Origin: Clostridiaceae bacterium HFYG-1003
GTDB taxonomy: Bacteria > Bacillota > Clostridia > Clostridiales > Clostridiaceae
DNA length: 64,000 nt
NCBI GenBank assembly: GCA_024579835.1
Contig: CP102060.1
Coordinates: 124,001 to 188,000, forward strand
Direction of reading: 5' to 3'
Position numbers and translations under genes: made by a program. Every line of letters starts with the position of its first letter. Position 1 is the stretch's first letter. Under the pieces are notes generated by a model. That model did not search any database. It saw nothing but the letters and a program-made list of their open reading frames with translations, and was not told the DNA's origin. Positions 1-62,599 of the stretch are shown in pieces.

Positions 1-986
1 TGTATCCTGCTCTGTATGCATCACTGTTTTCGCCAGTTTCTTCAGGTAGCTGAACCATAATAAATCTCCTGTTTCCAGCATCTTCAGAATTAAGTTGCAT
101 AACAGCATGGGCAGTAGTGGCAGAACCAGAGAAAAAGTCGAGAACTGTATATTCTTTGCCCATATGGAATAATAGTTTTTTGATTAGTGATATTGATTTT
201 ACAGTATCAAATCCAACAGGTGTCCTCATTATAGTATTTAACTCGTCTTTTCCTGTCTGTGCGGTTCCGTATTCTGAGGCACTGAACAATGACCAAAAAG
301 GTTTAAATTGTATTTTATCTAACTCATCTTCTGGGTATATAGCTTTTTTAACAATACCATCAACTATTTCTACTTTGCCTTCCTTTTCCAAAAGACGAGC
401 GGTATCTTCTCCGATCTGCCAGCGTTTGCCTTCTCTAGGATTTTGGCCTAGAATTTGGAATTTCATAGTAGGTCTATTATAGCTTCCAGCATCGGATTTC
501 TCTATTATTTCAAATCTACATGCACCATGTTTTCCAATGTGGGGATAGGATAAGTCACTATTAACTTCTTCTACATTAAAACCTGGCACGTTACTCTTGT
601 TTTTAGAATATATTAATATTGGCTCAGTTTTTTTCTGTAAACCGAACTTAGCTGAACCAGCATTTATCGGTTGTGTAGTAGATTCCCAAGTAATATCTCC
701 AAAATAATTAGCTTCATCAAAAATCTCATCGCATACTTTTTTTAGATTACTGTATTCATGTTCATCTATACTGATAAAGATTACTCCATCATCGGTCAAC
801 AAATCCTTCGCTACCCTTAATCGTGGATACATCATATTCAGCCAATTAGCATGGAAACGGTTAGATGATTTTGAGTTTTTTTGCAATGCGTTGCCAGATT
901 CATCACGAGAACCTTCTAGAATGTCACTTTCTTCTTTACTGATTTTAAACTTATCATTATAAACAAAATCACCATCAGTGTTGTAT
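1..986 (-). pseudogene. Type III DNA methyltransferase (Mod), C-terminal part, split by an IS and cut by the window edge
   Basis: The minus strand is open from 986 to the window edge. It continues the reading frame of the Mod N-terminus at 2409-2782: after DPPYNT the text reads DGDFVYNDKF. Near the left edge it carries the AdoMet-binding motif DFFSGSATTAHA. The order DPPY first and FxGS later is that of beta-class amino-methyltransferases such as type III Mod, which methylates adenine in the recognition site and directs the Res subunit. The N-terminal part lies on the other side of the IS256-type element at 987-2408, so the intact protein cannot be made. The true 3' end and any res gene lie outside the window. 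Confidence 0.85.
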
Positions 987-2408
987 AGTCAAGTCCATTT
1001 TAGTGTGTAAATTACCTCGGGTACATCAGATTCTATGTTAAACCAGGAAACCTGGTACAATATCTATTTCTAGAATTTCTTGCTTATGCCGCTTGCTGTT
1101 CATTATTGGAAGTGCCTGAGCAAGCCTGATGATAGGTATCCAGGTTCAGATAAATCCTACCAGAAGACCATTTTTCATCGTGCTCGATGAGGAGCGCTCC
1201 CATCAGTCGAATGGCTGATAATTCGTTGGGGAATATCCGGATTACCCGCTCCCGACGCCGGATTTCCTGATTCAGCCGCTCCACCCCATTGGTGGTCCTG
1301 AGACGCTTTCGTATGTTTAAAGGCAGACTCAGTACCGCAGTGATATCATCAAATGCCTGGTCAAGGAGATCCATCGCTTTGGGTGCGGCAGCTTCGTATT
1401 GCTGAATAATTCGTTGTTTTGCAGCTCTGGCACTCTCTTCATCCGTTGCTTCATAGATCTGGCGCAGGTCCTCCTTCAATGCAGGCTGCAGGGATTTAGG
1501 TGTTTTATCCAGAAGGTTCCTTGAGAAATGAGTTTGACATCGTTGCCAGCTGGATCCCTGGAAGTGTCTTCGTACGGCGGCCACAAGGCCAGCATGATTG
1601 TCAGAAGTGATCAGCCTCGGTTCTTTCAATCCCCTGGATTTCAACGATTGGAAGAATTCGCCCCAACTGGTTTCTGATTCGCTGTCTGCTAGATGGAAGC
1701 CGATGATTTCCCGCCCTCCGTCTTCGTTGACACCGACAGCGATGAGTAAACCCTTAGATCTTACACGATGATTTTCTCTCACCTTGATATAGATAGCATC
1801 CACAAGAAGAAAGGGATAATCCGTTTCCAAAGGGCGATTTCGAAACCCATCAACAACCGGATCCAGCCCTTTGCAAAGTTCGGAAACCATGGATTTAGAG
1901 AAGGATTTTCCACAAAGCTCTTCGGTGATATTCTCGATTTTCCTTGTAGAGACTCCATTGATGACCATTTCAATCATGGCAAGGACAAGGGCTTGCTCGC
2001 TTCGCTGATACCGCTCAAACATGGTCGTGCTGAAATTCCCATTCCGGTGCCTTGGGACCTTCAACGTGATGGTTCCGATGCGAGTGGTCAGCTCTCGCTC
2101 CCGAAATCCATTACGGTAAGCTGTACGGTCGCCAGAGCGTTCGTAAGGCTCCGCACCCAGTTGTTCTGTGGATTGAGCACTAAGGACCTGATTGAGAATC
2201 TCTTCAAGCAGTTTAGCAAAAGCATCATCTCGTTTATCTTTTGAAAAAAGTCCGTGCAAAAGTTCGGTTTCCAATGTAATATTTAATTGAGCCATATGTT
2301 CATCTCCTCGATTAGGTATTTGTTGTGGTAACAATATTTTAACCGAGGTTGAGCATTTTGGCTCGTTTTATTTGAAATTCCTTTTTACACCATTATACGG
2401 ACTTAATC
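987..2408 (-). mobile_element. IS256-family insertion sequence inside mod
   Basis: The element is bounded by imperfect terminal inverted repeats of about 26 bp: the left end has agtcaagtcc, and the right end read inward has gattaagtcc, with several mismatches further in. It is flanked by a 9-bp direct repeat, gtgttgtat, at 978-986 and 2409-2417. That fits the 8-9 bp target duplication known for IS256 elements. It carries one transposase gene on the minus strand. Deleting the element plus one repeat copy rejoins the mod reading frame exactly, which suggests a recent simple insertion. Confidence 0.88.
1084..2295 (-). CDS. IS256-family transposase
   Basis: This is a 403-aa mutator-type DDE transposase. 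The catalytic positions can be placed at the D of LLVDAIYIKV, the D of LITSDNHAGL and the E of NGVERLNQEIRRRE. The C-terminal half has the family pattern QRCQTHFSRNLL. The start at 2295 is chosen because GAGGAG lies eight bases upstream. An in-frame upstream ATG at 2334 would add 13 residues but lacks a good site. Length and motifs are complete, so the enzyme is probably functional. Confidence 0.93.
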   Translation of the reverse strand: MAQLNITLETELLHGLFSKDKRDDAFAKLLEEILNQVLSAQSTEQLGAEPYERSGDRTAYRNGFRERELTTRIGTITLKVPRHRNGNFSTTMFERYQRSEQALVLAMIEMVINGVSTRKIENITEELCGKSFSKSMVSELCKGLDPVVDGFRNRPLETDYPFLLVDAIYIKVRENHRVRSKGLLIAVGVNEDGGREIIGFHLADSESETSWGEFFQSLKSRGLKEPRLITSDNHAGLVAAVRRHFQGSSWQRCQTHFSRNLLDKTPKSLQPALKEDLRQIYEATDEESARAAKQRIIQQYEAAAPKAMDLLDQAFDDITAVLSLPLNIRKRLRTTNGVERLNQEIRRRERVIRIFPNELSAIRLMGALLIEHDEKWSSGRIYLNLDTYHQACSGTSNNEQQAA

Positions 2409-2782
2409 GTGTTGTATGGTGGATCAATATAAATCATTTTAATGGTGCCGTAATAGTTTTGACGAAGCAACTTTAGAACCTCAAGGTTATCGCCCTCAAT
2501 ATAGAGGTTTTCAGTAGTTTCAGGGTTCTTGCTATCTGATTCGATATAGTTAAGTGTTCTATTATAGACATCTTCTTGAGCTTTTTTCTTTGCGTCTTGC
2601 TTGCCAGCCCAAGTAAGCTCGTATTTTTCTTTGTCCACTTCTTCAAATTGCCCAAGCTCTTCTTTTAATGCTTCAAGGTCAACTTGTCCATCTTTAACAG
2701 CAGAGGGGAATAGCTGCGCGAGTAGCTTTACATTGTCGCCGACAATGTTGTTTATTTCCTGAGGTACTTTTGAGTAGTCCAT
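2409..2782 (-). pseudogene. Type III DNA methyltransferase (Mod), N-terminal part
   Basis: This is the first 124 codons of a Mod-type methyltransferase, starting MDYSKVPQ after a GGAGG site. It contains the usual N-terminal block (LYIEGDNLEVLKLL) followed by the catalytic motif IDPPYNT. The IS256 element interrupts it in the threonine codon, so a shortened protein ending a few residues into the IS would be made. It is the last gene visible in the minus-strand defence operon, 17 bp after the DUF4391 gene. Without Mod, a type III Res subunit has no sequence recognition, so that branch of the cluster is probably dead. Confidence 0.88.
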
Positions 2783-2799
2783 TTATTTTTCCTCCATGT

Positions 2800-3516
2800 T
2801 TATAGTTTGTCTAGTTCTGATATAGTTTGTCTTATTTCTTGATTCAGCTTCATTTTCTCACTATTAGTAATGGCCTTTTGTATCTTGTCTTTAGTGCTAG
2901 CGAGCGTGCTTAGTAGTGAATAAACGTTTTTCGCTTTACTAAAGCTGTACCATATTGGTTTAGATAAAAATGATTTTGAATCTGCGTACACCTTGTCATT
3001 TGTCAAAATATAGGCTCGTAGGAAAGATTCAAAATAAAAAGCACCTTTATTGTCATGGTTTTTAATATTTTCGTAGGCCAGCTCCCTAAGTAGTGTATTT
3101 TTATCTGAACTGGGTAGAGCAATGGGGTAAAAGGCTGTAAGAACCTTGTCTGTAACCACAATTTGCGTACTATCATTTTGATTCAATCTTTTTAGTGCGA
3201 AAGAGTATGCTTCGTTGTTGGCATCATGCAATTTGATCACACAAGGAGATTTGATAATCTCTTGGTACAAGTTCGCAATGAAGGCAGCCTTTTTGATATC
3301 AGTTAACTCAAAATCATAAAACTGAATCACTTGAAAATTGTATTCATCATTGACTAAAGAAGGGATGTCCTCTCCCATGATTTGATAGCGCAAGATCACA
3401 GCTTTGACACTTTCTTTGATTTTCTTTTTTACATCGGATTTATACTCTTTAGGGATCAAATCCTTCATGGGTATTTTTTTGCCGACTTTATATTTATCGG
3501 GTAAGTTAAACATCAT
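2800..3516 (-). CDS. DUF4391-family protein
   Basis: This 238-aa protein matches the DUF4391 pattern: an N-terminal LPDKYKVGKKIPMKDLIPK segment, a central IQFYDFELTD block, and a charged helical C-terminus (residues about 205-238). The family has no established biochemical role, but it recurs beside SNF2-type helicases and type III-like methyltransferases in defence islands. Here it lies between the UvrD-type helicase gene (38 bp gap) and mod (17 bp gap). A ribosome site AAGGTGG precedes the start. A role as an accessory subunit of the helicase/methyltransferase module is inference. Confidence 0.75.
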   Translation of the reverse strand: MMFNLPDKYKVGKKIPMKDLIPKEYKSDVKKKIKESVKAVILRYQIMGEDIPSLVNDEYNFQVIQFYDFELTDIKKAAFIANLYQEIIKSPCVIKLHDANNEAYSFALKRLNQNDSTQIVVTDKVLTAFYPIALPSSDKNTLLRELAYENIKNHDNKGAFYFESFLRAYILTNDKVYADSKSFLSKPIWYSFSKAKNVYSLLSTLASTKDKIQKAITNSEKMKLNQEIRQTISELDKL

Positions 3517-3554
3517 TCCACCACCTTGTAGTTAAAAGCAAACTCTAACATAAT

Positions 3555-5402
3555 CTAAGATTCAAGAATATCTATATCTTTCAAAAATCTTGACGGAGTT
3601 TGCCGTTTATTATCGCCCCAAGGCATTTTTTTGCTTCTAGGATAGGAAAGATAGCATAGACGTTTGGCTCTTGTTACGGCAACGTACATGTTATTCTTTT
3701 CTTGTTCCATTTCTGAACCACCGGCGCTAACTGCACGATAGTCTGGGAATGTGCCTTCAGATAGTCCAATAACGAAAACTACATCATACTGTAAACCTTT
3801 AGACATATGTGCGGTAAGCAAGGAAATTCCTTTGGAAGAAGAGGTGTCCTGAGTTTTCCCAAGGGATATATAATTTCTAAAAGAGAGTAGTGTTCTATTC
3901 TCACGCTGTACTTGGCCAGAGTACTTTTTCCAATGCTTATCCCATTGCTCAATATCGTTAATAATTAGATATCTCTCTTCATCCGACATGTTTGCAGGAA
4001 GTTGTTCTTTAAGTTGCAGTAAAACCTTAGAGAAATTAATTTCCTCTTTATTTAACGATTGAAAACAAGAGAGCAAGTCAGTGAATGCTGTATTTTCTAT
4101 AGCTTGTGTTAAGATTGCTATTGAATTATCATCACTAACAATTCCAGATGATTTTCGGTCAGTAATTTTGCACAATTCTCTTAAATGAACAATATCTTTC
4201 GGATTTAACAATATTCTGATTCCTAATTCAAATACTTTCATGTAGTCTGATTCGTTCTCAAGGCCATTTGAGCTTTTTTTATAAACAAATGGAATATTAA
4301 GTTCTGAAAAAATAGTTTCCAAAGGCGAGAGTACATATTTGTTTCGTGCAATAACTGAAAAAGAATCATAACTTAACCCATTTTCTATGTCAGGATGACC
4401 GCTGTATAGTAATTCCTTAATTCTATCTAATACAAATTGAGCTTCACATTTTTCATCCGAAAAAGAATATGCCTTTAATTCTCCTGAATAAACATAATTG
4501 GAGACGCTATCGTAATTTCCTAATTTATTCGCAAAATTTACAATCGTTTTTGCAGATCTATAGTTTTCATTCAACAAGTAAATAGTGGGCTTGAAGTCCT
4601 TAACAAACTTTTCAGACATTAAAGTGCTATCTGACCCATTGAACCCATATATCGACTGATTTTCGTCTCCTACAAGCATTATATTTTTGCACTTATCTCC
4701 ACAGAGTGCTTTGATAACTTGATATTGTGCAAAATTCAAATCCTGTGCTTCGTCTACACATACAAACTTATATAGCGAGGTATATAAATTCACAACGGAA
4801 GGGTTTTCTGTAAGAATTTTGTATGCAAAAAACAGTATGTCATCAAAATCTAAAGCATTTTGGCTCAATAAACGTTCATTATATTCACGATAGATTACTG
4901 GAAATGGTTCGTTCATTTCACACATTTCTGGCGAAATGAATTTCTTTTTTTGTTCGGAAATTAGAGACAAGCATTTTTGTAGAAAAGCGGTAGGCTTTTC
5001 TTTTGACTTTAATATTGTCATTAGTTGAGGATCGCTGGAGAAAACATCTCGCAATATTGAAAGCTGATCTGAATTGCTTTCAAAAATCATCAGTTCTTTT
5101 CCTAAGCCAATTAAGTTGCCTCTGCTTTGCACTAAATCTAAACAAAACGAATGGATAGTGCCTACGGTAACATTTTCAGCTAAATCACTGATTAAAGTAT
5201 CTTCCTTAAGTCTATTTTTCATTTCATCAGCAGCGAGGTTACTAAATGTAAGTGCTAAAATTTTACAACGTTTTTTGGATAGAAGAAGATGTTTAATCCT
5301 TTCTATGAGGACTCGTGTTTTTCCGCTTCCCGGTCCTGCTTTGACTAGAATAGCCCCTTCCACATGCTTAACAATTTGTTCTTGCTTATTCGATAACTTC
5401 AT
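3555..5402 (-). CDS. UvrD/Rep-type superfamily 1 helicase, GajB-like
   Basis: This 615-aa protein has the SF1A helicase motifs: Walker A AGPGSGKT at residues 22-29, motif II VDEAQD near 217, NYRS further on, motif V region GISLLTAHMSKGL near 520, and motif VI VAVTRAKRL near 572. Its start overlaps the end of the OLD-type nuclease gene by 17 bp, with AAGGAGG 12 bases upstream, so translation is probably coupled. An OLD-type nuclease followed by a UvrD helicase is the known Gabija gene pair (gajA, gajB). Characterised GajB proteins are shorter, roughly 500 residues, so this may be a divergent branch or a general helicase recruited to the operon. Confidence 0.85.
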   Translation of the reverse strand: MKLSNKQEQIVKHVEGAILVKAGPGSGKTRVLIERIKHLLLSKKRCKILALTFSNLAADEMKNRLKEDTLISDLAENVTVGTIHSFCLDLVQSRGNLIGLGKELMIFESNSDQLSILRDVFSSDPQLMTILKSKEKPTAFLQKCLSLISEQKKKFISPEMCEMNEPFPVIYREYNERLLSQNALDFDDILFFAYKILTENPSVVNLYTSLYKFVCVDEAQDLNFAQYQVIKALCGDKCKNIMLVGDENQSIYGFNGSDSTLMSEKFVKDFKPTIYLLNENYRSAKTIVNFANKLGNYDSVSNYVYSGELKAYSFSDEKCEAQFVLDRIKELLYSGHPDIENGLSYDSFSVIARNKYVLSPLETIFSELNIPFVYKKSSNGLENESDYMKVFELGIRILLNPKDIVHLRELCKITDRKSSGIVSDDNSIAILTQAIENTAFTDLLSCFQSLNKEEINFSKVLLQLKEQLPANMSDEERYLIINDIEQWDKHWKKYSGQVQRENRTLLSFRNYISLGKTQDTSSSKGISLLTAHMSKGLQYDVVFVIGLSEGTFPDYRAVSAGGSEMEQEKNNMYVAVTRAKRLCYLSYPRSKKMPWGDNKRQTPSRFLKDIDILES

Positions 5403-7281
5403 GAGTTCTGTAATCCTCCTTTTCTGTTAAATCTAAAAGACGCCCAATTTCTTTTAAAAGAGTATTAATTTTCGATGGAATTCGTTTGGTAACGTCTTGC
5501 TGTGACACTATTTTTTCAGCCACATATGTAGCATATTTCGCTTTCGCTTTTTTTCCGGTACAACAATCATATAATGCACGTTCCAATCCACCTTCACCAT
5601 CGAAATCCCTTAAAACGTCCTTATATATATGTTGCTGACAAGTACCACACGTAGGATCATTAGTACGTTCTCTACCCATAGATGTATGATTTTTAGTAAG
5701 AATATAGTTAGCAAAATATTCTTCATCATTTTCGCACTCATTTATTGCAGAAATAATAATGTCCCTATAACCGTCAGATATTAAATATTTTTCATAATCA
5801 TTTTCGTTGTCTAAAATAACAATGTTTGACATGCTGTTCAATTCTTCAATATTTTCAACGCCGACGGCTTTTTTAACAGTCTTTTTGGTTTCAGTTTCAC
5901 CATCGCTGAAAATAAACCAAGGGATATCAAGGTCTTTAATTAAATTTAGAAATGTTTTGTAATTCTGACCGCCAATTCCGATTATATTTATACCGCTACA
6001 AATTGCTTCAACTCCGAAGTATTCTTTGAAGTATATAGGTAAGGCTTGTTCTTCGGTTATACCTTCACATAGAACAATAGCATTAGAGAACAGCAATTCA
6101 CCTCTTGTATTGATAACTTCTCGCTCTATTCGATTCAATTCTTCCGGAGTAAATTGACCTACATTAAAACGCTTCACACTAGTTTTACCTTGCTGCTTAT
6201 TAATATAAATAATATCCCTTAGGTCTGCCTGAGCAAGAACGCTAGGAGAGTGAGTGCTAATAATTTTCTGCCCATCAAATTCACTTATTTGAAAGTACAG
6301 TTGACGTTGAGCTTGAGGGTGTAAATGCGCCTCGGGTTCTTCCATTGTCAACATTGTATAATTTTCAGCATCTTCATCATCTTGCTTAAGTTTTTCGTTG
6401 TGCCAATCTACATAAGCACCTAGTGTTAAAAAAGATATCCAACTTCGTGTTCCCATTCCGTGTTGTGATATGGAAAACTGAGCAGCTACGCCGTCTTTAT
6501 ATACAATGTCCATTCCTTTGTGCAAATCAGAAATTTTTCTAGCGAGGGGTTCAATTTCCACAGTACCTGTTGATGAACCCATTGTTTTACCTATAGAAGA
6601 CATTCTTCTATTTGTTTGTTGCAGCGCAGGTATATTTCGAACAATTTCTGAATTTATATAGTTTAGCTGTCCTTCTAATTCCGAAGTTAGCTGATCTGAT
6701 AAATCACTTTGAGACGTAGCTTTACCAAAAAATGATTTTCTGTTTTTGATATCTTCAACAGCATCACGATGAGCATCCATATAAAAAGATGTCAATGAAT
6801 CAACCATATCATTTCCAAAGCTTTTCTTTGCACCAACAACTGATGTTTCAATAGAATCATTCCATTCCTGAATAGGCTTTTTGACAATAATATAGTCATC
6901 TTTTCTTATATCGTATTGAAGGACAGTTCTAATTCCGACGTAATCTCCGTTGGTTTCGTCAGGTGTAATCCAAGAATCTGTAAATACACTTATCCAGAAA
7001 TCAGAAAATGTTTTTTGAAAAGTACCTTCTAAGTCTACTGGCTTCAATAAAATATCTATTGTTGCTGTTTTAGTGCTTGAAATTCTTTCCTCTGATGAAA
7101 TAAAAATATCAGATTCAGAAATATCTCGAACGTTACCAAAAGCAATATTTATTGCTTTGAGCAGGTTGGATTTTCCACAATTATTCTGTCCTATGATAAT
7201 ATTGGTTTTATTGATTGTTAAATCAATGTTTTCCAATGATCTGAAGTTATTCACTCTAATATTTGTTAAGGATATTGGCAT
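5386..7281 (-). CDS. OLD-family ATPase with TOPRIM nuclease, GajA-like
   Basis: This 631-aa protein starts with an SMC/RecF-type ATP-binding site (GQNNCGKSN, residues 31-39). A Walker B segment LTMEEPEAHLHP lies near 310 and STHSPSVL follows. The second half is a TOPRIM nuclease: the conserved glutamate is in VLCEGITEEQ near 405 and the acidic pair in FSDGE near 457. A Cys-containing stretch (TCGTCQQH) precedes the helical C-terminus. Such proteins cut DNA under nucleotide control; with a GajB helicase they form the Gabija anti-phage complex. AGGAGG lies 6 bases before the ATG. The gene sits 46 bp after the SNF2 helicase gene, so it belongs to the same transcript. Confidence 0.87.
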   Translation of the reverse strand: MPISLTNIRVNNFRSLENIDLTINKTNIIIGQNNCGKSNLLKAINIAFGNVRDISESDIFISSEERISSTKTATIDILLKPVDLEGTFQKTFSDFWISVFTDSWITPDETNGDYVGIRTVLQYDIRKDDYIIVKKPIQEWNDSIETSVVGAKKSFGNDMVDSLTSFYMDAHRDAVEDIKNRKSFFGKATSQSDLSDQLTSELEGQLNYINSEIVRNIPALQQTNRRMSSIGKTMGSSTGTVEIEPLARKISDLHKGMDIVYKDGVAAQFSISQHGMGTRSWISFLTLGAYVDWHNEKLKQDDEDAENYTMLTMEEPEAHLHPQAQRQLYFQISEFDGQKIISTHSPSVLAQADLRDIIYINKQQGKTSVKRFNVGQFTPEELNRIEREVINTRGELLFSNAIVLCEGITEEQALPIYFKEYFGVEAICSGINIIGIGGQNYKTFLNLIKDLDIPWFIFSDGETETKKTVKKAVGVENIEELNSMSNIVILDNENDYEKYLISDGYRDIIISAINECENDEEYFANYILTKNHTSMGRERTNDPTCGTCQQHIYKDVLRDFDGEGGLERALYDCCTGKKAKAKYATYVAEKIVSQQDVTKRIPSKINTLLKEIGRLLDLTEKEDYRTHEVIE

Positions 7282-7327
7282 TAGGTACCTCCTGATATTA
7301 CCGGTATTATTGGGAATTATGTGATAA

Positions 7328-10300
7328 TCATTCCACCACCAAAAATGAAATCAGCTCAAAGTCATCTGTCGTTTCTTCAGCAAAAGCATTGTTGAATCCG
7401 CCAAAGTCAAAGGTGGCTTGGAAGGCTTTTTCTTCTTCTTCACCCTTGATGGAATGTACCGCCTTGTTGAGAAGCTCGGAATAAATCTTCATATCCTTTG
7501 TATTGTTTGTTTTCTGAAAGAACTGGTCAAACAAGGGCTGAACAGGTAAGTTTTTTCCATAGCAGAGCTTTCTAAAGAGCTTAACCACTTCACGAGCCTT
7601 GCCATTCCCATAGAGCACTTCCCCGTTATTATCAAGGTAAAGCAAATAGTAGGGGTACAGAGAGCTGTCAGACTTAGGTTTTTGATCATCATTGCTATGC
7701 TTAAAGCAGAATAAAACACCTTGCTTTTCACCGTCTGTTACAGAATATAGCCCATTAGGCACACCTTTTATTGCCGGAGTGTTGTTCACGTAATCGGACA
7801 ATTCATACAGGTATTCGTTCATATTCAGGTCGGTAAGAGAGATATTCTCATTGGCATCTTCAATGTCAATGACTTCATCCTTCAAGCGTTCGAGTTGCCT
7901 CTTTCTAAAGTTGAAGTCGTTCATTTCAGGGGACAAGAAATCCTCATCGCCGGTGGAAACAATATTCAAGGTTGTCATCTTTCCTTTTACTCGCTGCTCC
8001 AAACCTAAGTATTCATTCAGCTCAAGGTTAGGGAAGAAGTTAATCATTTGAATACGTTCGTTGGTGCTGCCGATACGGTCAATTCGACCGAATCTTTGTA
8101 TTAAGGATACGGGATTCCACTGGATGTCAAAATTGATAACCGTATCGCAATCCTGCAAGTTTTGACCCTCCGAAATACAATCTGTACCAATAAGGATATC
8201 AATTTGCTTATCCGCCAGAATCTCCTTTTTCATTTTTGATTTTGGAGAGAAGGCGCAGAGCAGGGAATTAAAATCATTATCCACATGTTTGTTGTTTGTC
8301 TTTACGCCTTTGCCTGTCACACAGGCAGTGTGTAAGTGGATTTTCTTAAGCTCGTCTGCAATTTGCTGATATATGTATTCTGCTGTATCTGAGAAAGCAG
8401 TGAATACGATAATCTTCTTGTTGCCGCTGTTGTAAGGCATCTGCGTTACTTTTTTAACAATTTCGTCTTGTAGGGTGCGGATTTTCAAATCTCTATTTTC
8501 ATCTAAAATGCTCTTTGCATCATTGTATATTTTTTCAAGGATAATTTTATCGCCCTCTAAATCGTACAGATAATCCGCAACACGAAGGTGGGCAACTTCA
8601 ATTTCATATTTGCCTTCCAGGTATTCATATTCTTCATCGGCTGTGCCTGTTTCCTCGTCAACAAATCCGCCTCGATTAAGTATTTCCATGGTTCTATCAA
8701 TCTTTTCCATCAATCTTCTGATGGTTTCCGCAAAGGAATAGACCGAGCTTTCCAAGCGTTTAAAGAGATTGAAACGGTGCATGACAATCATACCCTTAGA
8801 CTGGGTTTGGAAGTCCATTTTTCCGCCACGTTTTCCCTTCAAGCTATATTTCTCAGCATATATTTTCTGGTATTCGCTTTTAATATATTTTGTAGGCGTG
8901 TACACCGACAATTCAAGGGATTCTAGCAATTCATTTGTATCAGCAAACTTTAGGAGTTCTTCATGAGTATCAATTTCAGGGCGTCTGGTTTCCGGCTTGT
9001 TTTTACTGGGAAATTTGCCAACGCTGCTGTTGCCGTAATAGCTGGTAATATGCTTTCTGCTTCTGGAAATAGTCATAAGCTCAAGGAGCTTATAAAAGTC
9101 CGAAGGAAGGCTGTCTAACAAATCATTTTTATTATGGTTGGGAGTAGTTTCCCATTGATTGATAACAGCAGAGGACTTCCTGAGAAGGTTCTCCACGCTG
9201 GAGATGCCTTCATCCTGAAAAGCGAAATCTCTATCGCCGGTTATGATGCTAATCTGGTTTTTAAGGTCTACCAAGCTATTGTTAACAGGAGTGGCAGAAA
9301 GGAGAAGCACCTTGGTATTGTTTTTGCCTCTTTTGATTACATCCTGCATAAGTCTGGCATACCTTGTCATAATCAATTGGTCGTTGTCATCGTAACGGTC
9401 ATTTCTGTTTCTGAAATTGTGTGATTCATCAATGACGACAAGGTCATAATTGCCCCAGTCGAATCGCTTTAGGTCTTGTCCAGATTGAGACATGCCTTTG
9501 TATCTGGACAAATCTGTGTGAAACATAATCCTGTAATTAAAAATCTCATTCAAAAAACTGTCCTTGTATGTACCACGGAATGAGTTCCAGTTGTCATAGA
9601 GCTTCGCAGGGGTGAGAACCAAAACATTATCCATCTTTATTTCAAAGTATTTTATAACAGCGAGGGCTTCAAAAGTTTTACCTAAACCAACTGAATCGGC
9701 TATGATGCAGCCTCTATATTTTTGCAGCTTTTGAATGGCAGATACAACACAGTCCTTCTGAAAATCATAAAGCGATTGCCATATTTCAGTCTTTTTGAAT
9801 CTTTCGCTGTCTCTTTCGAATCTTTCTATACCGCTATCTATTTGATATCCAAACAGTTCGTTGAGGGTATAATAGTACAGAAATTCAGGGGAATGTTCTT
9901 TATAAACAAAGGACAAACTCTGCAACAATTCTTCTTTGTAATCCGAAGAAACCTGATCGTTAAACCAGATTTGATTGAATATGTTTAATGCCGAAAGTAT
10001 TTGATCTTTGTCCATCGTGCCATTGAGCATCGTGTCAAAATTGATATTCCTGTAAGAGTTTTTGCTTTTCTTTGGAGATACCTCCAAGGAGGATGATCCT
10101 TGTATCATAAAATCATCATCAATAATGATGATATTTCCACCTATTTTGGTTTTAGGGTTTGCCCTTTTAACATTTACATTCGCCTTGATAAAATCGTGCA
10201 TAGCCTTTGCTTTTGCAAAGTGCTTCAATTTGTTTTTTTCGACAATATCATAGGAATTGTATAAGATATCCGTTGGAGCCATTTCAAACTCATGCGATAT

Positions 10301-10501
10301 TTCAGATTTCTCAGGGACAAACTTTGTATCTCTGATTACAAAGTTTATCTCCTTTACATTTTTAAGATTTTGTTCGAGTAATGCAAAAACTGACAGTGTC
10401 AGCTTGTCATTTACAATATTAACAACGGCATTCCTTTTTGATTTTAGAACATCGTTGATTTTTTCAATCATTTGCTCTGTTGAAGCGATTACGTTTCCCA
10501 T
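7328..10501 (-). CDS. SNF2-type superfamily 2 helicase with PLD-like N-terminus
   Basis: The 1057-aa protein has an N-terminal region (about residues 1-170) that resembles a phospholipase-D fold: IIIIDDDFMIQGSSSLE takes the place of the HxK...GSxN motif, but the histidine is absent, so it is probably not a nuclease. The SF2 ATPase follows: ADSVGLGKT near 265, VVIDESHNF near 355, LLSATPVNNS near 402, and the C-terminal helicase lobe with IGTDCISEGQNLQ and QRFGRIDRIGS near 805. The start at 10501 is preferred because AAAGGAG lies 8 bases upstream; a TTG at 10531 has none. It is the first large gene after the XRE regulator, so it probably anchors the operon. Confidence 0.87.
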   Translation of the reverse strand: MGNVIASTEQMIEKINDVLKSKRNAVVNIVNDKLTLSVFALLEQNLKNVKEINFVIRDTKFVPEKSEISHEFEMAPTDILYNSYDIVEKNKLKHFAKAKAMHDFIKANVNVKRANPKTKIGGNIIIIDDDFMIQGSSSLEVSPKKSKNSYRNINFDTMLNGTMDKDQILSALNIFNQIWFNDQVSSDYKEELLQSLSFVYKEHSPEFLYYYTLNELFGYQIDSGIERFERDSERFKKTEIWQSLYDFQKDCVVSAIQKLQKYRGCIIADSVGLGKTFEALAVIKYFEIKMDNVLVLTPAKLYDNWNSFRGTYKDSFLNEIFNYRIMFHTDLSRYKGMSQSGQDLKRFDWGNYDLVVIDESHNFRNRNDRYDDNDQLIMTRYARLMQDVIKRGKNNTKVLLLSATPVNNSLVDLKNQISIITGDRDFAFQDEGISSVENLLRKSSAVINQWETTPNHNKNDLLDSLPSDFYKLLELMTISRSRKHITSYYGNSSVGKFPSKNKPETRRPEIDTHEELLKFADTNELLESLELSVYTPTKYIKSEYQKIYAEKYSLKGKRGGKMDFQTQSKGMIVMHRFNLFKRLESSVYSFAETIRRLMEKIDRTMEILNRGGFVDEETGTADEEYEYLEGKYEIEVAHLRVADYLYDLEGDKIILEKIYNDAKSILDENRDLKIRTLQDEIVKKVTQMPYNSGNKKIIVFTAFSDTAEYIYQQIADELKKIHLHTACVTGKGVKTNNKHVDNDFNSLLCAFSPKSKMKKEILADKQIDILIGTDCISEGQNLQDCDTVINFDIQWNPVSLIQRFGRIDRIGSTNERIQMINFFPNLELNEYLGLEQRVKGKMTTLNIVSTGDEDFLSPEMNDFNFRKRQLERLKDEVIDIEDANENISLTDLNMNEYLYELSDYVNNTPAIKGVPNGLYSVTDGEKQGVLFCFKHSNDDQKPKSDSSLYPYYLLYLDNNGEVLYGNGKAREVVKLFRKLCYGKNLPVQPLFDQFFQKTNNTKDMKIYSELLNKAVHSIKGEEEEKAFQATFDFGGFNNAFAEETTDDFELISFLVVE

Positions 10502-10527
10502 GTGAACACTCCTTTCCGCTGAATACT

Positions 10528-10752
10528 TCAATTATTTTCTGTAACATTGCCATCTGAAACCGCTGAACAAATATCACCGATGTCACATTGTAAAACTTCA
10601 CAAATTGATAGCAATACGGCAACAGAAACAGGTTCGTTTTTATTCAGCTTTGTGATTGTTCCTGCCGATAATCCGGTTAGCTTTCTCAAATCACTTTTCT
10701 TGATATCTCGCTTGATAAGCTCAATCCATAATTTCTTATAACTGATATTCAT
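10528..10752 (-). CDS. XRE/Cro-type helix-turn-helix regulator of the defence operon
   Basis: This small 74-aa protein is essentially one Cro/CI-type DNA-binding domain: DIKKSDLRKLTGLSAGTITKLNKNEPVSV contains the helix-turn-helix and recognition helix. It ends 26 bp before the SNF2 gene and is read with it. Of two ATG codons, 10752 has AGAGGG at a normal 6-base spacing; 10758 is too close. By position it probably senses or limits expression of the defence genes behind it. A BrxR/CapW-type role is not indicated because no ligand-binding domain is present. Confidence 0.85.
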   Translation of the reverse strand: MNISYKKLWIELIKRDIKKSDLRKLTGLSAGTITKLNKNEPVSVAVLLSICEVLQCDIGDICSAVSDGNVTENN

Positions 10753-11116
10753 ATTCATCCCTCTTTTATCACCGACTTTTGCTTTGCGGGCATTGTAATC
10801 CGGGCATTATAATAACCATTACATTATAAACCAGATATCGTAAACTTACAAGAATTAATAGCAAATCAGTAAAGAAACTCACAACATTATGTGATAAATG
10901 ACTACAATTTAATGAAGTGGGATAAAAAGAGGCGTAGTTGAAGAGAAATTGTACTGTCTTAATGTCCTGTTTTTTCTGGAAACAATCGTGGCAAGCAGGG
11001 CAAGGTGGTACACACCTTGCAATTTTGCTTGTTGGGGAGCATCCCCAATCCCCACTGAACACACAATAAATTGTGTGGCTGCGCTCATTGCGTGAGCTGA
11101 AAAAGCATAGGCAATA
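10753..11116. promoter_or_regulatory. Gene-free interval with operon promoter region and two hairpins; candidate ICE oriT
   Basis: No convincing gene is visible here. The right half holds two clean hairpins: gcaaggtg/caccttgc (11000-11007 with 11013-11020) and ttgggga/tccccaa (11032-11038 with 11042-11048), joined by an AT-rich spacer. Paired short hairpins of this kind are common at transfer origins, and the interval lies next to the relaxase gene, so an oriT is a reasonable guess. The left, AT-rich half should contain the promoter for the minus-strand XRE-led operon, but I cannot place -35/-10 boxes with confidence. Confidence 0.4.
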
Positions 11117-57103: not shown

Positions 57104-57320
57104 CGTATCTTGCAGCAATTTCCTACTTAATAAAACCGCTCAAGATTTTTGAAGACTTTCTCGCTGAATGTTCGGGGAAATTGATATTATGACTGGATCA
57201 AATCAATGTATCGTTTTCAGGCTGATGTCTCATTAACATGTTATAATTTACGAAGATAGTTTAATTTATTGGTTTATATTACATTTATCTAGTGGTTTAG
57301 TCTTCGAAAGGATGGGGCTT

Positions 57321-59669
57321 GTGGGTAAGAGTATATTATCAGAGGAAGATATCAAGTTAAGATACATCACTCCGGCAATACTAGGAGCTGGATGGGACCG
57401 AAATACGCAAGTTCGTATGGAATACACTTTTACTGCCGGACGTATCATTTTGCGAGGAAACATCACGGCTCGAGGAAGAAAAAAGAGTGCTGATTATCTT
57501 TTATCCTACAAAAGGAATTTTCCATTAGCGATTGTGGAAGCCAAGGACAATAAGCACTCGGTTGGAGCTGGACTTCAGCAAGCTATCGAGTATGCAAAGG
57601 CTTTAGATGTTCCCTATGTGTATGCTTCCAACGGTGATGGATTTGTTGAGCAAAACCTGATTTCTGGCGAAGTTAGAGATTTAAAACTCGATGAATTTCC
57701 GTCCCCTGAAGAGTTATATCAAAGGTTTAAAGTCGACAAGGGAATAGATACGGCTGCAGAAAAAGTGATTCTGGAGCCATATTATTACGTTCCAAATTAT
57801 AAGACACCTCGCTATTATCAGCGAGTGGCTATTAATCGCGCTGTTGATACTGTGGCAAAAGGCCAAAATCGCGTGCTTCTCGTTAGTGCCACTGGAACTG
57901 GAAAAACCTATATGACCTTTCAAATCATTTATCGGTTATGGAAATCTGGTTTAAAGAAGAAAATTCTTTTCCTTGCAGACCGTAACATTCTTATTGATCA
58001 AACAATTTCGGGAGACTTTAAACCGTTCAGTGGTAAGCTGACAAAAGTACAGGATAGAAAATTAGACAGTTCCTATGAAATTTATACAGCACTTTATCAT
58101 CAGCTGGCCGGGGATGAAGGAGTAGAAGCATTTCGTCAATTTCAGCCAAACTTCTTTGATCTTATTGTCATAGATGAGTGCCATAGGGGAAGCGCCAAAG
58201 AAGAATCGGCATGGAGGAGAATTTTAGACTATTTTTCTGAAGCAACCCATATCGGCTGCACAGCTACTCCGATCGAAACGAAAGAAGCGTCTAGTTATAA
58301 ATATTTTGGCGAACCTATTTATGAGTACTCCTTAAAGCAAGGAATTGATGACGGTTTCCTTGCGCCATATAAAGTTATTCGCATTGGCTTAGACAAGGAC
58401 CTGGAAGGATATCGCCCGGAAGCAGGAAAACTGGATAAGAATGGATTCGAGATCGAAGATCGAGAATATAACGTAAAGGATTTTGATCGGAAAATCGTCA
58501 TAGACGACCGAACCCGTGTTGTAGCCTCTAAGATTACTGAGTTTCTGCAAAAGACGGATCGCTTTAGTAAGACGATTGTCTTTTGCATCGATGTTGAGCA
58601 TGCCGAAAGGATGCGCCAGGCACTCATCAATGAAAACAATGATCTTTATGCAGTAAATGATCGCTATATAATGCGCATAACTGGAGACAATGAAATCGGA
58701 AAGGCGCAGCTTGAAAACTTTATTGATGAAGAAAGTGTCTATCCAGTTATTGCTGTGACCAGTAGGCTCATGACTACCGGTGTTGATGCAAAAATGTGTA
58801 AGCTGATAGTCCTTGAGAACAACATCAACAGTATGACTGAGTTTAAGCAGATCATTGGGCGGGGCACTAGACTGCTTGAAGAATACGGGAAAACGTATTT
58901 TACGATTATGGATTTCAGAAATGCCAGCAGACTTTTTGCGGATCCTGCTTTTGATGGACTACCGGAAGTCGTTATTGACCTTGATGAAGATGATCCAGTT
59001 TTTGATCCACCAGTAGATCCAGACAATTCAAATGGTGAGGGAGATGACGAAAATCCCCCAGATGATGGTGAAGGAGGTAGTGGCGATGATGAGTGGGATG
59101 ATAAACCGAAAAAGTATTATGTAGGTGATGTGACTGTTCGAGTCCTGTCTGAGAGAGTTCAATACCTCGATAAGGATGGAAAACTCATCACAGAAAGCCT
59201 GATCGATTACACTAGGAAAAATATCCTTCAGCAGTATTCCAGGCTGGATGATTTCCTGCGCACTTGGACTGAAGCTGAAAAAAAGCAGGCTATCATCGAA
59301 GAACTCAAGGACGATGGTGTCTTGTTAGAGGCTGTAAGAGAAGAACTGGGCAAGTCGGAGCTGGATGACTTTGACCTTATTTGCCACATTGCCTATGACA
59401 AAGCACCCTTAACTAAAAAGGAACGGGCGGAAAATGTTAAGAAGAGACATTATCTTTACAAATATTCGGACGTTGCTCAGCAAGTAATTGAAACGCTCCT
59501 TGATAAGTATGCCAATGATGGCATTAAAGAGATTGAGGATACAAAAATACTTCAGTTAAACGAGTTTGCCCAAATAGGCAGTCCAATGAAAATTGTAAAA
59601 GCATTTGGTGGAAAAGAAAAATATTTAAAAGCAGTTCAAGAACTAGAGAATGAAATTTATTATGCATAA
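57321..59669 (+). CDS. hsdR: Type I restriction enzyme R subunit
   Basis: The 782-aa motor-nuclease cuts unmodified DNA after translocation. Its endonuclease core is near the N-terminus: SADYLLSYKRNFPLAIVEAKD gives D, E and K of the PD-ExK site. The SF2 motor has VSATGTGKTYM near residue 195, VIDECHRG near 285, GCTATP, and GRGTRLLEEYG in motif VI. An acidic, Pro/Gly-rich linker (GEGDDENPPDDGEGGSGDDE) and an EcoEI-type C-terminal domain follow. GTG at 57321 is preferred, eight bases after AAAGGA; the ATG at 57312 touches that site. It heads an hsdRMS operon. Confidence 0.92.
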   Translation: MGKSILSEEDIKLRYITPAILGAGWDRNTQVRMEYTFTAGRIILRGNITARGRKKSADYLLSYKRNFPLAIVEAKDNKHSVGAGLQQAIEYAKALDVPYVYASNGDGFVEQNLISGEVRDLKLDEFPSPEELYQRFKVDKGIDTAAEKVILEPYYYVPNYKTPRYYQRVAINRAVDTVAKGQNRVLLVSATGTGKTYMTFQIIYRLWKSGLKKKILFLADRNILIDQTISGDFKPFSGKLTKVQDRKLDSSYEIYTALYHQLAGDEGVEAFRQFQPNFFDLIVIDECHRGSAKEESAWRRILDYFSEATHIGCTATPIETKEASSYKYFGEPIYEYSLKQGIDDGFLAPYKVIRIGLDKDLEGYRPEAGKLDKNGFEIEDREYNVKDFDRKIVIDDRTRVVASKITEFLQKTDRFSKTIVFCIDVEHAERMRQALINENNDLYAVNDRYIMRITGDNEIGKAQLENFIDEESVYPVIAVTSRLMTTGVDAKMCKLIVLENNINSMTEFKQIIGRGTRLLEEYGKTYFTIMDFRNASRLFADPAFDGLPEVVIDLDEDDPVFDPPVDPDNSNGEGDDENPPDDGEGGSGDDEWDDKPKKYYVGDVTVRVLSERVQYLDKDGKLITESLIDYTRKNILQQYSRLDDFLRTWTEAEKKQAIIEELKDDGVLLEAVREELGKSELDDFDLICHIAYDKAPLTKKERAENVKKRHYLYKYSDVAQQVIETLLDKYANDGIKEIEDTKILQLNEFAQIGSPMKIVKAFGGKEKYLKAVQELENEIYYA

Positions 59670-59686
59670 GAAAGTAGGTACATTTA

Positions 59687-61156
59687 ATGGCAATTGGTAA
59701 CTTTGTGAAAAGAATTCAGGATGTAATGCGCAATGACTCTGGCGTTAATGGTGATGCACAGAGAATTGAGCAAATGGTTTGGATTCTTTTTTTGAAAATA
59801 TATGATGCAAAAGAAGAAACCTGGGAGCTTCTGAATGATAACTACAAATCCATCATCCCAGCTGGATTAAAATGGCGCGACTGGGCGGTGGATCATAGGG
59901 ATGGGGAAGCACTCACTGGAGAAGCACTCCTTACCTTTGTAAACACTACTCTTTTCCCAACCCTTAAGAACCTTGAAATCGATGAAGAAACTCCAATGAG
60001 CCAAGTCATCGTTCGCTACGCTTTTGAAGACGCTAATAATTACCAGAAAGACGGAGTTCTGCTAAGACAGGTCATCAACATCATCGATGAAATTGATTTT
60101 ACCGAATATAAAGAGCGGCATGCCTTTGGAGGGATCTACGAATCGTTCCTAAAAGACCTTCAAAGCGCAGGAAATGCTGGAGAATTTTATACTCCTCGGG
60201 CTGTTACTGATTTTATGGTCAAAGTAGTGAAGCCGGTATTGGGAGAAAAGATAGCTGATTTCGCCTGCGGCACAGGGGGATTTTTGACTTCAACTCTGAA
60301 AGAACTGGAAAGGCAAGTCGGAAGCTCATTGGAGAATCGTAGGATCTACAATGATTCAGTTTATGGAGTTGAGAAAAAAGGGCTTCCCCACATGCTATGC
60401 GTCACCAATATGCTCATCCACGATATTGATGACCCCAATATCCTACATGGAAATGCTCTCGAAATTGACTACAAAGAGATGAGAAAACTCGAGCCATTTG
60501 ATGTGATCCTGATGAATCCACCATATGGTGGCAGCGAGAAGGACAGCGTGAAGTCCAACTTTCCGATGGAGCTGAGAAGTTCAGAGACTGCAGATCTCTT
60601 TATGAATGTGATTATGTATCGACTTAAGAAAAATGGTCGAACTGGGGTCATAATACCAGATGGATTTTTGTTTGGTACAGATAATGCAAAGTCTAATATT
60701 AAGAAAAAACTATTCAGTGAATTTAATGTTCACACAGTGGTAAGAATGCCGCATAGTGTCTTTGCACCTTACACATCGATTAGAACCAACATCTTATTTT
60801 TTGATAATACAGAACCAACCAAAGAAACCTGGTTCTATCGTGTAGATATGCCGGAAGGGTATAAGAACTTCTCCAAGACGAGACCAATGAGATTTGAGCA
60901 TTTCAATGAGGCCCTCAACTGGTGGAATAACCGAGAAGAGATCGAAGTAGATGGATTCCCTAAAGCAAAGAGGTATACGATCGATGAAATTGTGGAAAGA
61001 AGCTACAACATTGATCTTTGCGGATTCCCCCACGAAGAGGAAGTGATTCTTGAACCGATGGACTTGATTCAAGAATACCAGGAGAAGCGGGCGTCACTAA
61101 ATGCAGAAATTGATCACGTATTAGAACAGATTACTTCTATGCTTGGAGGTAATTAA
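59687..61156 (+). CDS. hsdM: Type I DNA methyltransferase M subunit
   Basis: The 489-aa N6-adenine methylase has an N-terminal HsdM helical domain, motif I ADFACGTGGFLTS near residue 192 and catalytic NPPYGGS near 277. It modifies the site chosen by HsdS, and with HsdS and HsdR restricts foreign DNA. It lies 17 bp after hsdR and abuts hsdS (stop TAA directly followed by ATG), so it is part of one operon. Confidence 0.95.
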   Translation: MAIGNFVKRIQDVMRNDSGVNGDAQRIEQMVWILFLKIYDAKEETWELLNDNYKSIIPAGLKWRDWAVDHRDGEALTGEALLTFVNTTLFPTLKNLEIDEETPMSQVIVRYAFEDANNYQKDGVLLRQVINIIDEIDFTEYKERHAFGGIYESFLKDLQSAGNAGEFYTPRAVTDFMVKVVKPVLGEKIADFACGTGGFLTSTLKELERQVGSSLENRRIYNDSVYGVEKKGLPHMLCVTNMLIHDIDDPNILHGNALEIDYKEMRKLEPFDVILMNPPYGGSEKDSVKSNFPMELRSSETADLFMNVIMYRLKKNGRTGVIIPDGFLFGTDNAKSNIKKKLFSEFNVHTVVRMPHSVFAPYTSIRTNILFFDNTEPTKETWFYRVDMPEGYKNFSKTRPMRFEHFNEALNWWNNREEIEVDGFPKAKRYTIDEIVERSYNIDLCGFPHEEEVILEPMDLIQEYQEKRASLNAEIDHVLEQITSMLGGN

Positions 61157-62599
61157 ATGAATGCACAGGACTTAAAGAACAGTATTCTTCAACTCGCCAT
61201 ACAGGGAAAACTTGTAGAACAGCGGGAAGAGGAAGGTACTGCAAAAGAATTATTAGTAAAGATTGAAGCTGAGAAGAAACAGCTGATTAAAGAAGGTATA
61301 ATCAAAAAACAAAAGACACTACCGGAAATCAAAGCTGATGAGATTTCATTTGATATCCCTGAGAGCTGGGAATGGGTTAGATTATCCGAAATAATAGATG
61401 TTCGTGATGGAACGCATGATACACCAAAGTATGTTGTACAGGGTGTTCCTTTAGTCACAAGCAAGAATTTGAAGCAAGGTAAGATTGACTTCGATAACGT
61501 CAAGTTTATTTCTGTAGAAGATTCCGAAAAAATCAATATGAGATCTGGTGTTGACGATGGTGATATTCTGTTTGCAATGATTGGCTCAATTGGAAACCCT
61601 GTACTTGTTAATAAAACTAGAGACTTTTCTATTAAAAACATGGCGTTATTTAAACCTATAAAAAACACAATATTCAACATGGAGTATCTACTTAATTATT
61701 TACAGCTTGAACAAGAAAACATGAAAAGTAAAGCTGCTGGTGGTGTGCAGTCATTTGTTTCACTAACGTTTTTAAGAAAATACCTAGTCCCCTTCCCCCC
61801 ACTTGAAGAACAAAAGCGCATCGTAGCAAAGATCGAAGAACTGATGCCATATGTCGATAAATACGATGCAGCCTATTCCGAAGTGGAGGAGCTCAATAAA
61901 AAGTTCCCGGAAGATATGCAAAATTCCATTTTGCAATATGCCATCCAAGGCAAGCTCGTAGAACAGCGAGAAGAAGAGGGAACGGCTGAAGAACTTTATA
62001 AGAAAATCCAGGAAGAGAAGAAGAAACTGATTAAGGAAGGCAAGATTAAAAAGACCAAGGCGCTTCCAGAGATTACAGAAGATGAGATCCCATTCGATAT
62101 CCCGGAGAATTGGAAGTGGGTTAGGTTGGGTGATGTAATCCATTTGACATCTGGTCAGGACATGACTCCAAATAAGTATAATGATATTTCTAAAGGTATC
62201 CCTTATCTAACAGGTGCGAGTAACATTCAAGATGGAGAAATTTTGATTAATAGATGGACAGAAGAACCTAAAGCAATAGCTCTTAAAGGCGATGTTTTGT
62301 TGACTTGTAAAGGTACAGTTGGCAAAACAACAATCCTTGAACAGGATGAAGTACATATTGCTAGACAAATTATGTCAATTAGAACTATAGTTGTCGATGC
62401 TGAGTTTATACGGTACTTTCTTAAGAGCTATGTTAATATTTTGAAATCGCTGGCAAAGAGTATGATTCCTGGGATAGAAAGGAAAAATGTTCTAGAAGCT
62501 CCTTTCCCCCTTCCTCCGCTTGCAGAACAAAAACGTATTGTGGAGAAGATAGAAGAACTTCTACCATATACAAACCAACTGGTAAAGAAGGTAGACTAA
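61157..62599 (+). CDS. hsdS: Type I specificity subunit S
   Basis: The 480-aa protein has two target-recognition domains (about residues 70-215 and 315-465), each followed by a conserved helix (PLEEQKRIVAKIEELMPYVDKY and PLAEQKRIVEKIEELLPYTNQL). The segment before each domain is a near copy: NSILQ, AIQGKLVEQREEEGTA, and PFDIPE/SFDIPE with WEWVRL/WKWVRL. That repeat allows recombination to swap recognition domains. It follows hsdM without a gap. Confidence 0.93.
   Translation: MNAQDLKNSILQLAIQGKLVEQREEEGTAKELLVKIEAEKKQLIKEGIIKKQKTLPEIKADEISFDIPESWEWVRLSEIIDVRDGTHDTPKYVVQGVPLVTSKNLKQGKIDFDNVKFISVEDSEKINMRSGVDDGDILFAMIGSIGNPVLVNKTRDFSIKNMALFKPIKNTIFNMEYLLNYLQLEQENMKSKAAGGVQSFVSLTFLRKYLVPFPPLEEQKRIVAKIEELMPYVDKYDAAYSEVEELNKKFPEDMQNSILQYAIQGKLVEQREEEGTAEELYKKIQEEKKKLIKEGKIKKTKALPEITEDEIPFDIPENWKWVRLGDVIHLTSGQDMTPNKYNDISKGIPYLTGASNIQDGEILINRWTEEPKAIALKGDVLLTCKGTVGKTTILEQDEVHIARQIMSIRTIVVDAEFIRYFLKSYVNILKSLAKSMIPGIERKNVLEAPFPLPPLAEQKRIVEKIEELLPYTNQLVKKVD

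Follow-up and report, generated by a model that had tools for sequence, protein, structure and literature searches.

How did a Gabija-like gene pair come to lie inside what otherwise reads as a restriction-modification (RM) operon, and does it work with its neighbours there? The question is raised by a locus of Clostridiaceae bacterium HFYG-1003, found near the first base of a 64,000-nt stretch of DNA (the window; bases 124001 to 188000 of a single-contig 3.43-Mb genome, G000:C1). An earlier reading, made from sequence alone, had recognised on one strand the genes for an XRE regulator, an SNF2 helicase, an OLD-TOPRIM nuclease, a UvrD helicase, a DUF4391 protein and Mod, and had envisaged a composite defence system. 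We propose that a type III-like SNF2-DUF4391-Mod-Res operon carried by an integrative element captured a complete Gabija module, GajAB, which would act as a co-transcribed second layer; we hold this proposal with belief and doubt in about equal measure. The features on which it is built are as follows (aa, amino acids):

10823..10851, minus strand: promoter-like site TTGTAA-17-TATAAT, 5' of the XRE gene, candidate operon promoter (consensus scan, 10/12 matches)
10528..10758, minus strand: XRE/Cro-C1-type helix-turn-helix regulator (HTH_26), 76 aa (PF13443, E 3.6e-18; match to NCBIfam VanU below its cut-off)
7328..10501, minus strand: SNF2-family helicase, 1057 aa, with a degenerate PLD/HKD-like N-terminus, core gene 1 (PADLOC PDLC01075 'HKD+Snf2', 735.8 bits)
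7327..7340, minus strand: copy 1 of a 14-nt direct repeat, GGTGGTGGAATGAT, where the SNF2 gene stops; marks the left border of the inserted GajAB block
5386..7281, minus strand: GajA, OLD-family ATPase and TOPRIM nuclease, 631 aa (PADLOC PDLC00067, 699.8 bits, 7.3e-211; PF13175, PF20469)
3555..5402, minus strand: GajB, UvrD/PcrA-like superfamily 1 (SF1) helicase, 615 aa (PADLOC PDLC00132, 783.1 bits over residues 1-610)
3512..3525, minus strand: copy 2 of the 14-nt repeat, where the DUF4391 gene starts; marks the right border of the inserted GajAB block
2800..3516, minus strand: DUF4391 protein, 238 aa, an alpha/beta domain with C-terminal helices, core gene 2 (PF14335, E 1.3e-47)

Transcription order on the minus strand is XRE, SNF2, GajA, GajB, DUF4391, mod and then, outside the window, res. 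The first five reading frames are all open and co-directional, and successive genes from XRE to mod are separated by 26, 46, -17, 38 and 17 nt, the 17-nt overlap between GajA and GajB being the only one in the operon. These figures take the ATG at 10501 as the SNF2 start, most likely the correct choice because a AAAGGAGTG ribosome-binding site precedes it and homologues begin there; the XRE/SNF2 overlap described earlier is thus replaced by a 26-nt interval. Sites as promoter-like as the one 5' of XRE are no commoner in the region than in shuffled sequence (35 against 38.2 expected), and this site is therefore weak evidence.

The PADLOC scores listed above bear out the assignment of the pair to Gabija. 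As in Gabija of Bacillus cereus VD045, an OLD ATPase with a TOPRIM nuclease is followed by an adjacent SF1 UvrD-like helicase; the window pair differs in being nested in an RM operon rather than standing alone. GajA retains Walker A and TOPRIM residues, and its E406, E410, D460 and E462 align with E379, E383, D432 and D434 of the solved B. cereus GajA chain, which we take to be catalytic; for the C-terminal D/K residues no alignment with that chain was obtained. GajB retains the SF1 motifs. The sequence-only reading would have been refuted by a UvrD protein grouping outside GajB: PADLOC places the protein in GajB, while its sequence resembles PcrA/UvrD over the full length (7e-130 over 5-625 against PcrA, compared with 4.9e-30 in two stretches, best 12-69, against the B. 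cereus GajB chains). A CxxCxQxI motif in the C-terminal region of GajA (within 5386-5950), possibly a metal site, is shared by 12 of 87 GajA proteins, that of the window included.

To characterize the host operon, SNF2 homologues were sampled regardless of Gabija in 194 genomes of the order, 398 genomes of the phylum and IMG/VR. The order sample comprised all 28 places beyond the window's own at E <= 1.4e-44 (two pieces of one broken gene were counted once), the phylum sample 31 of its 32 places other than that of the window, and the IMG/VR sample the 76 loci retained by the scan. In 88 of these 135 loci, genes for SNF2, DUF4391, Mod and Res follow one another in this order on one strand. The SNF2/DUF4391/Mod set reported earlier does recur, then, and is more exactly an SNF2-DUF4391-Mod-Res cassette. 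The incomplete loci are those in which Mod (28), Res (13) or DUF4391 (6) went undetected, some of them due to contig ends. Beyond the nearest relatives DUF4391 was recognised by an iterated profile at 11-21% identity, so that individual assignments may err; the resulting alignment still leads to a confidently predicted fold. Dropping the duplicates L187, L193, L217 and L261 left 84 distinct complete cores.

Distances between core genes, taken between the ends of profile matches, differ sharply from one junction to the next. Between SNF2 and DUF4391 the median is 9 bp, and more than 300 bp are found in only two of the 84 cores (L040 and L250). More than 300 bp separate DUF4391 from Mod in 35 cores, an upper figure since values of 250-350 bp may reflect a short profile match, and Mod from Res in 18. 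The inserts identified, a few of many, comprise SIR2-like and HerA (L167), SIR2 (L177), AAA_13 with DUF4145 (L172), Schlafen (L176), AbiJ (L057), RhuM (L172, L173) and a trypsin-like protein (L180). The DUF4391|Mod slot of L167 (8233-11756) holds the SIR2-like and HerA genes, and that of L177 (5171-6553) a SIR2-like gene beside a 719-aa neighbour. L199 and L250 each have two Mod-like genes per cassette with a short ORF between them, as if the methylase had been duplicated.

Because the SNF2|DUF4391 junction is normally closed, GajAB must be regarded as the insert. Among the sampled loci only the window and L040 have it at this position, and in both the block is bordered on either side by GGTGGTGGAATGAT (at 8942 and 12760 in L040). 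Among 19,486 random segment pairs 2 share an exact match of at least 14 nt, as do 4 of 5,769 pairs of start regions. When one copy of the repeat is removed in silico, the SNF2 stop comes to overlap the DUF4391 start. In appearance the two copies resemble the scar of an insertion.

The window operon has a close relative. Locus L040, from a genome of another genus (G048), has the identical seven-gene order with mod intact, and encodes proteins 83-97% identical to those of the window (XRE, 90.8%); an IMG/VR record labelled putative virus is apparently the same G048 contig. Ratios of nonsynonymous to synonymous divergence (dN/dS) lie between 0.026 and 0.084 for SNF2, GajA, GajB, DUF4391, ModC and Res, and reach 0.255 in the short XRE. 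The shared order in another genus and the low dN/dS argue that the operon is more than a chance assembly. Synonymous divergence is uneven (dS 0.86 for SNF2, 0.48 for GajA, 0.36 for GajB, 1.19 for DUF4391, 0.53 for ModC and 0.16 for XRE), a mosaic that may give a weak hint of separate exchange of blocks.

The single-strand operon deduced earlier holds for the five open genes. It required correction at its 3' side, where an IS256-family insertion divides mod and where res proves to belong to the operon as well; position 2409, at which the region had been made to start, is the mod/IS256 junction and not the operon end. The features concerned are:

2408..2782, minus strand: 5' part of mod, encoding the N-terminus of the type III methyltransferase, core gene 3, interrupted (PADLOC MTase_III, 152 bits; boundary drawn against the intact L040 mod)
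990..2407, minus strand: IS256-family insertion within mod, transposase ORF 2334-1084 (NF033543, 402.5 bits; PF00872)
1..989 and on past the window, minus strand: rest of mod, ORF to G000:C1:123435 (PF01555)
G000:C1:123421-120338, outside the window: intact type III res, 1027 aa (PF04851 and PF19778)

The mod stub is a 129-aa ORF (2782-2393) that terminates shortly past the DPPYNT motif. The IS256-family element, present in one copy only in the genome, is flanked by a GTGTTGTAT direct repeat (at 978 and 2409); its outer ends were placed by comparison with the L040 mod. Res, which adjoins mod, combines a ResIII helicase with an endonuclease domain carrying a PDW...ETK motif. As in type III RM systems, the operon pairs a Mod-type methyltransferase with a ResIII/endonuclease Res. 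The likeness on the Mod side is that of the L040 copy, an intact N6/N4 methyltransferase with DPPY, since the IS256 interruption leaves the window without an intact Mod. The difference from type III systems is that SNF2 and DUF4391 precede Mod-Res, which is partly by design since the loci were found via SNF2. With mod split, the Mod/Res half is probably off in the window genome; SNF2, GajA, GajB and DUF4391 stay intact despite it.

The SNF2 protein keeps its helicase motifs (Walker A, DESH, SAT and motif VI). As the sequence-only reading had it, the PLD-like N-terminus is degenerate: the HKD signature HxK...GSxN is missing in the window protein, and occurs in 4 of 58 SNF2 homologues (the 54 rows without it include L183, which has no N-terminus, and the truncated L062). 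Since SNF2 lacks this signature, the nuclease of the host cassette is probably Res. The predicted SNF2 model (mean predicted local distance difference test score, pLDDT, 70.6) is too weak for the N-terminal domain, and its 50 listed matches are SNF2/RapA- and RIG-I-like motors. L163 has an intact HKD signature in an otherwise ordinary SNF2-DUF4391-Mod-Res set and may show the ancestral state. The AlphaFold2 model of DUF4391 has a mean pLDDT of 90.9. No function is assigned to this protein, as fold searches gave no confident match (none in the PDB at E <= 0.001 with Foldseek and none at Z >= 5 with VIA-align), which is not proof of a new fold.

The surroundings of the operon suggest how it travels. 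On its 5' side lie a relaxase gene (12493-11117) and, farther off, genes for a RadC/YodL protein and a topoisomerase. Past res, a large serine recombinase gene (L009:5824-8783, that is G000:C1:115824-118783) overlaps convergently the end of a uracil-methyltransferase gene, likely the integration site of the element. From this gene content the operon reads as sitting on an integrative and probably conjugative element. When plasmids were searched with SNF2, 503 records matched, and in 93 the match spans 80% or more of the query; the window DUF4391 protein, used as one divergent query, gave no plasmid match.

Is the capture a single event? In the loci sampled the exact gene order recurs in L040 alone, so that the uniqueness which would have told against the earlier reading applies by half, the order belonging to one lineage; joining of Gabija to the cassette, however, is repeated, in several unrelated lineages. 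The SNF2-based samples yield four of the 84 complete cores with GajA and GajB on the same strand inside or at most 6 kb from the core: L040 (between SNF2 and DUF4391), L169 (between DUF4391 and Mod, together with a KilA-N protein), L042 (after Res) and L164 (before SNF2). A GajA-based scan added L098 (GajAB following Res), L148 (DUF4391 and then a GajA-like gene, at which the contig ends) and L100 (SNF2, an Eco57I-type methylase, RmuC and GajAB). Not counted as pairs were L043, where Res is followed by a GajB fragment, and L183, where it is followed by a GajA-like ATPase alone. That Gabija and the SNF2 set are always separate elsewhere is thus contradicted by L042, L164, L169 and L098. The pairs differ in family (PADLOC PDLC00067/00132 in the window and L098, 00090/00103 in L042, 00085/00107 in L164 and 00078/00120 in L169), and on the SNF2 tree the Gabija label changes 6 times over 8 rows, the window included (L098, L148 and L100 having entered through GajA, and L040, L042, L164 and L169 through the SNF2-based samples).

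The converse relation was examined from the side of GajA. Within the order a GajA like that of the window is uncommon: 2 of 194 genomes have one at E <= 1e-30, the window genome included. The best 80 of 459 relatives in an alignment scan and five plasmid loci gave 85 scored loci, which were called linked when modification genes lie within the same co-directional run. Scoring relied on iterated hidden Markov models, with hand labels from Pfam for L086, L096, L100, L103, L114 and L124. Linked loci number 24 and unlinked ones 48, and 13 are undecidable at contig ends; modification genes flank GajAB on both sides in eight loci, or nine counting L114.

On a GajA tree built by a quick method with Shimodaira-Hasegawa-like approximate likelihood ratio (SH-aLRT) support only, well-supported branches define a 60-row clade that includes the window, with 23 linked, 24 unlinked and 13 undecided rows, and a 26-row group with 3 linked and 23 unlinked rows (Fisher p 0.0019). 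The tree omits, on account of their length, the linked loci L100 and L105; L042 lies outside both groups, and L132 was relabelled linked by hand because it aligns with L114. The contrast persists without the window, L040 and L169, which had been added because they are linked (21/45 vs 2/25, Fisher p 0.0011). The modification operons joined to the window's clade are of type I RM, BREX and SNF2-Mod-Res kinds. The linkage label changes 17 times on the tree, a number as low in 2 of 500 shuffles, pointing to many gains or losses together with some clustering.

Transfer of one GajAB module between host operons appears clearest, judging from DNA similarity, in L096 and L098. The two blocks are 82.6% identical over 3570 nt (GajA 89.6% and GajB 86.3% at the protein level) and their flanks do not align. 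In L096 (Alkalitalea) GajAB lies between HsdM and HsdR homologues in a type I-like arrangement, in which no HsdS was found; in L098 (Sphingobacterium) it lies behind SNF2-DUF4391-Mod-Res. Junctions can be tight: subtracting the HsdS stop from the GajA start gives -3 in L094, L108, L112 and L122, a 4-nt overlap with mechanical ORF starts.

Comparable embeddings have been described. According to PMC12839542, Gabija-type modules occur in modification operons of BREX and BREX-related systems; in the present set, the modules of L103 and L114 lie beside PglX-like and BrxL genes. In that paper Rakesh and Krishnan propose that TOPRIM-OLD modules, Gabija included, serve BREX and related loci as backup effectors. 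In L114 (6603-18116) GajAB lies within a BREX operon, with a PglX-like gene on one side and, on the other, BrxL paired with a PglZ-like gene that scores below cut-off; L132, from another proteobacterium, aligns with L114 on both sides of GajAB. The BREX-related Type-2 helicases of PMC12839542 join an HKD domain to SNF2, as the window protein does in degenerate form; the window operon differs in that its methyltransferase is Mod-type with a Res partner and the HKD signature is lost. Identity with Type-2 was rejected, as Pfam at E <= 0.01 finds neither DUF499 nor DUF3780 in the proteins of the operon, in Res or in the two parts of mod, and the HKD motif is absent. DISARM was rejected too: SNF2 scores 144.8 against an NCBIfam DrmD cut-off of 610. 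Neither DrmA nor DrmB is the best PADLOC match of any operon protein (best 25 families each, Res outside the run), SNF2 giving weak cross-matches to DrmD and DrmA. A further parallel is reported in PMC12255303, DarTG2 placed between hsdS and hsdR of a type I RM system: there too a whole module lies among core genes with a small regulator at the head, and it differs in the module and in the type of host operon. The same paper cites Septu in Hma and 'guilt by embedding' (a preprint by Payne et al.). DUF4391 is mentioned in PMC7784981. No description of the SNF2-DUF4391-Mod-Res cassette was found in the literature searched, a limited library in which not every paper was followed. Thus the embedding principle is already known; what is new here is its occurrence in an apparently undescribed carrier, and a Gabija clade enriched in such carriers.

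How might the two halves act together? Mod would mark self DNA, and Res, with SNF2 and with DUF4391 as a putative adaptor, would attack DNA that is unmarked. GajAB, presumably transcribed with the cassette, would provide a second nuclease layer on linear or damaged phage DNA. A phage might outlive restriction by guarding its cut DNA ends against the end-processing enzymes of the host, and GajAB would catch such a phage, with no specific protein contact needed between the Gabija and restriction halves. In Pseudomonas, Gabija is reported to act on linear DNA with RecBCD-shielded ends and not on injected ends as such (PMC12407980; review PMC12904381).

Several points weigh against capture of GajAB as a second layer. 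By the account in PMC12407980, Gabija action also required an end-acting phage system, and therefore Res-made ends alone may not suffice. The window GajB is closer to PcrA/UvrD than to characterised GajB, which makes carry-over of the known Gabija mechanism uncertain. The GGTGGTGGAATGAT repeat contains the ribosome-binding site GGTGG, so that shared function accounts for part of it. No edge repeat was found at 11 other inserts (L169, L167, L177, L098, L096, L082, L094, L097, L108, L113 and L114); the longest stretches shared there measure 5-11 nt (in unequal segments and with no chance comparison), and a 14-nt scar is therefore not general. The exact embedded order is that of one lineage, Gabija is absent from most cassettes, and the same slots also carry unrelated modules, which disfavours a specific Gabija-core coupling. 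One deep branch separates the two GajA groups in a quick tree that has long branches (L169, L042), and the linkage contrast thus rests on shared ancestry as well as on repeated events. Co-transcription, activity and synergy of the two halves are predictions of the proposal.

These points give weight to a possible, though less probable, account in which GajAB is cargo, kept since its insertion was harmless and the promoter useful, and in which the two systems are independent and share only transcription and mobility. It is the main rival because unrelated modules occupy the same slots. The core takes inserts of many unrelated kinds, and the Gabija pairs at the cassette themselves belong to four different families; 24 of the 47 scorable rows of the window's GajA clade are unlinked to modification genes, and the operon in the window is retained despite its broken mod. 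A mere passenger sits less well with the clade bias of the linkage (21/45 vs 2/25) and with the many GajAB positions that are operon-internal and tight, such as the 4-nt HsdS overlaps of L094, L108, L112 and L122.

PARIS fires on sensing Ocr, and PrrC acts as a guard for its host system. In like manner, GajAB could stay silent until the restriction half is blocked or circumvented by a phage, with a DNA mimic for instance. We consider such a role improbable. The preference of the window's clade for modification operons is in its favour, and so is the AAA_13 protein in the DUF4391|Mod slot of L172, AAA_13 being the PrrC-type family. Yet the clade has as many unlinked copies (24) as linked copies (23), in round terms, and a strict guard would hardly tolerate an intact gajAB beside a disrupted mod. 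Gabija is said, in PMC12255303 citing others, to be activated by the anti-restriction protein Ocr; later work, however, ascribes its licensing to RecBCD antagonism (PMC12407980). That SNF2 and DUF4391 physically join GajA and GajB in one machine sharing a sensor or DNA loading, as the adjacent, closely spaced genes of one operon might suggest, appears very unlikely indeed, since sister cassettes without GajAB retain the same core and the position and family of Gabija vary among cassettes.

Similar captures having occurred several times in other bacteria, the capture of GajAB by the window operon points to restriction operons as vehicles of interchangeable second-line weapons. A wider proposition, which we regard as doubtful, is that the window pair belongs to a Gabija subtype with a full-length UvrD/PcrA-like helicase that has become specialised as a plug-in for modification operons (type I RM, BREX, SNF2-DUF4391-Mod-Res), moving as one cassette and functionally coupled to them, for example by acting on restriction-made ends; SNF2-DUF4391-Mod-Res would then be a widespread carrier, as yet without a name, in which particular slots are reserved for cargo. 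Coupling of this sort, if true, would account for the joint transmission of restriction genes and end-sensing nucleases. Either way, a one-off operon becomes a testable pattern, with four fixed restriction genes and exchangeable second-line modules, and with one Gabija clade lying in modification operons at about half of its scorable loci. Two natural experiments are at hand: the GajAB module in the unrelated hosts L096 and L098, and the L040 relative with its intact mod.

A 450-aa ORF (62638-63990) with no Pfam match at E <= 1e-5 follows a second restriction system in the window, a type I HsdR-HsdM-HsdS set at 57312-62599 on the plus strand.

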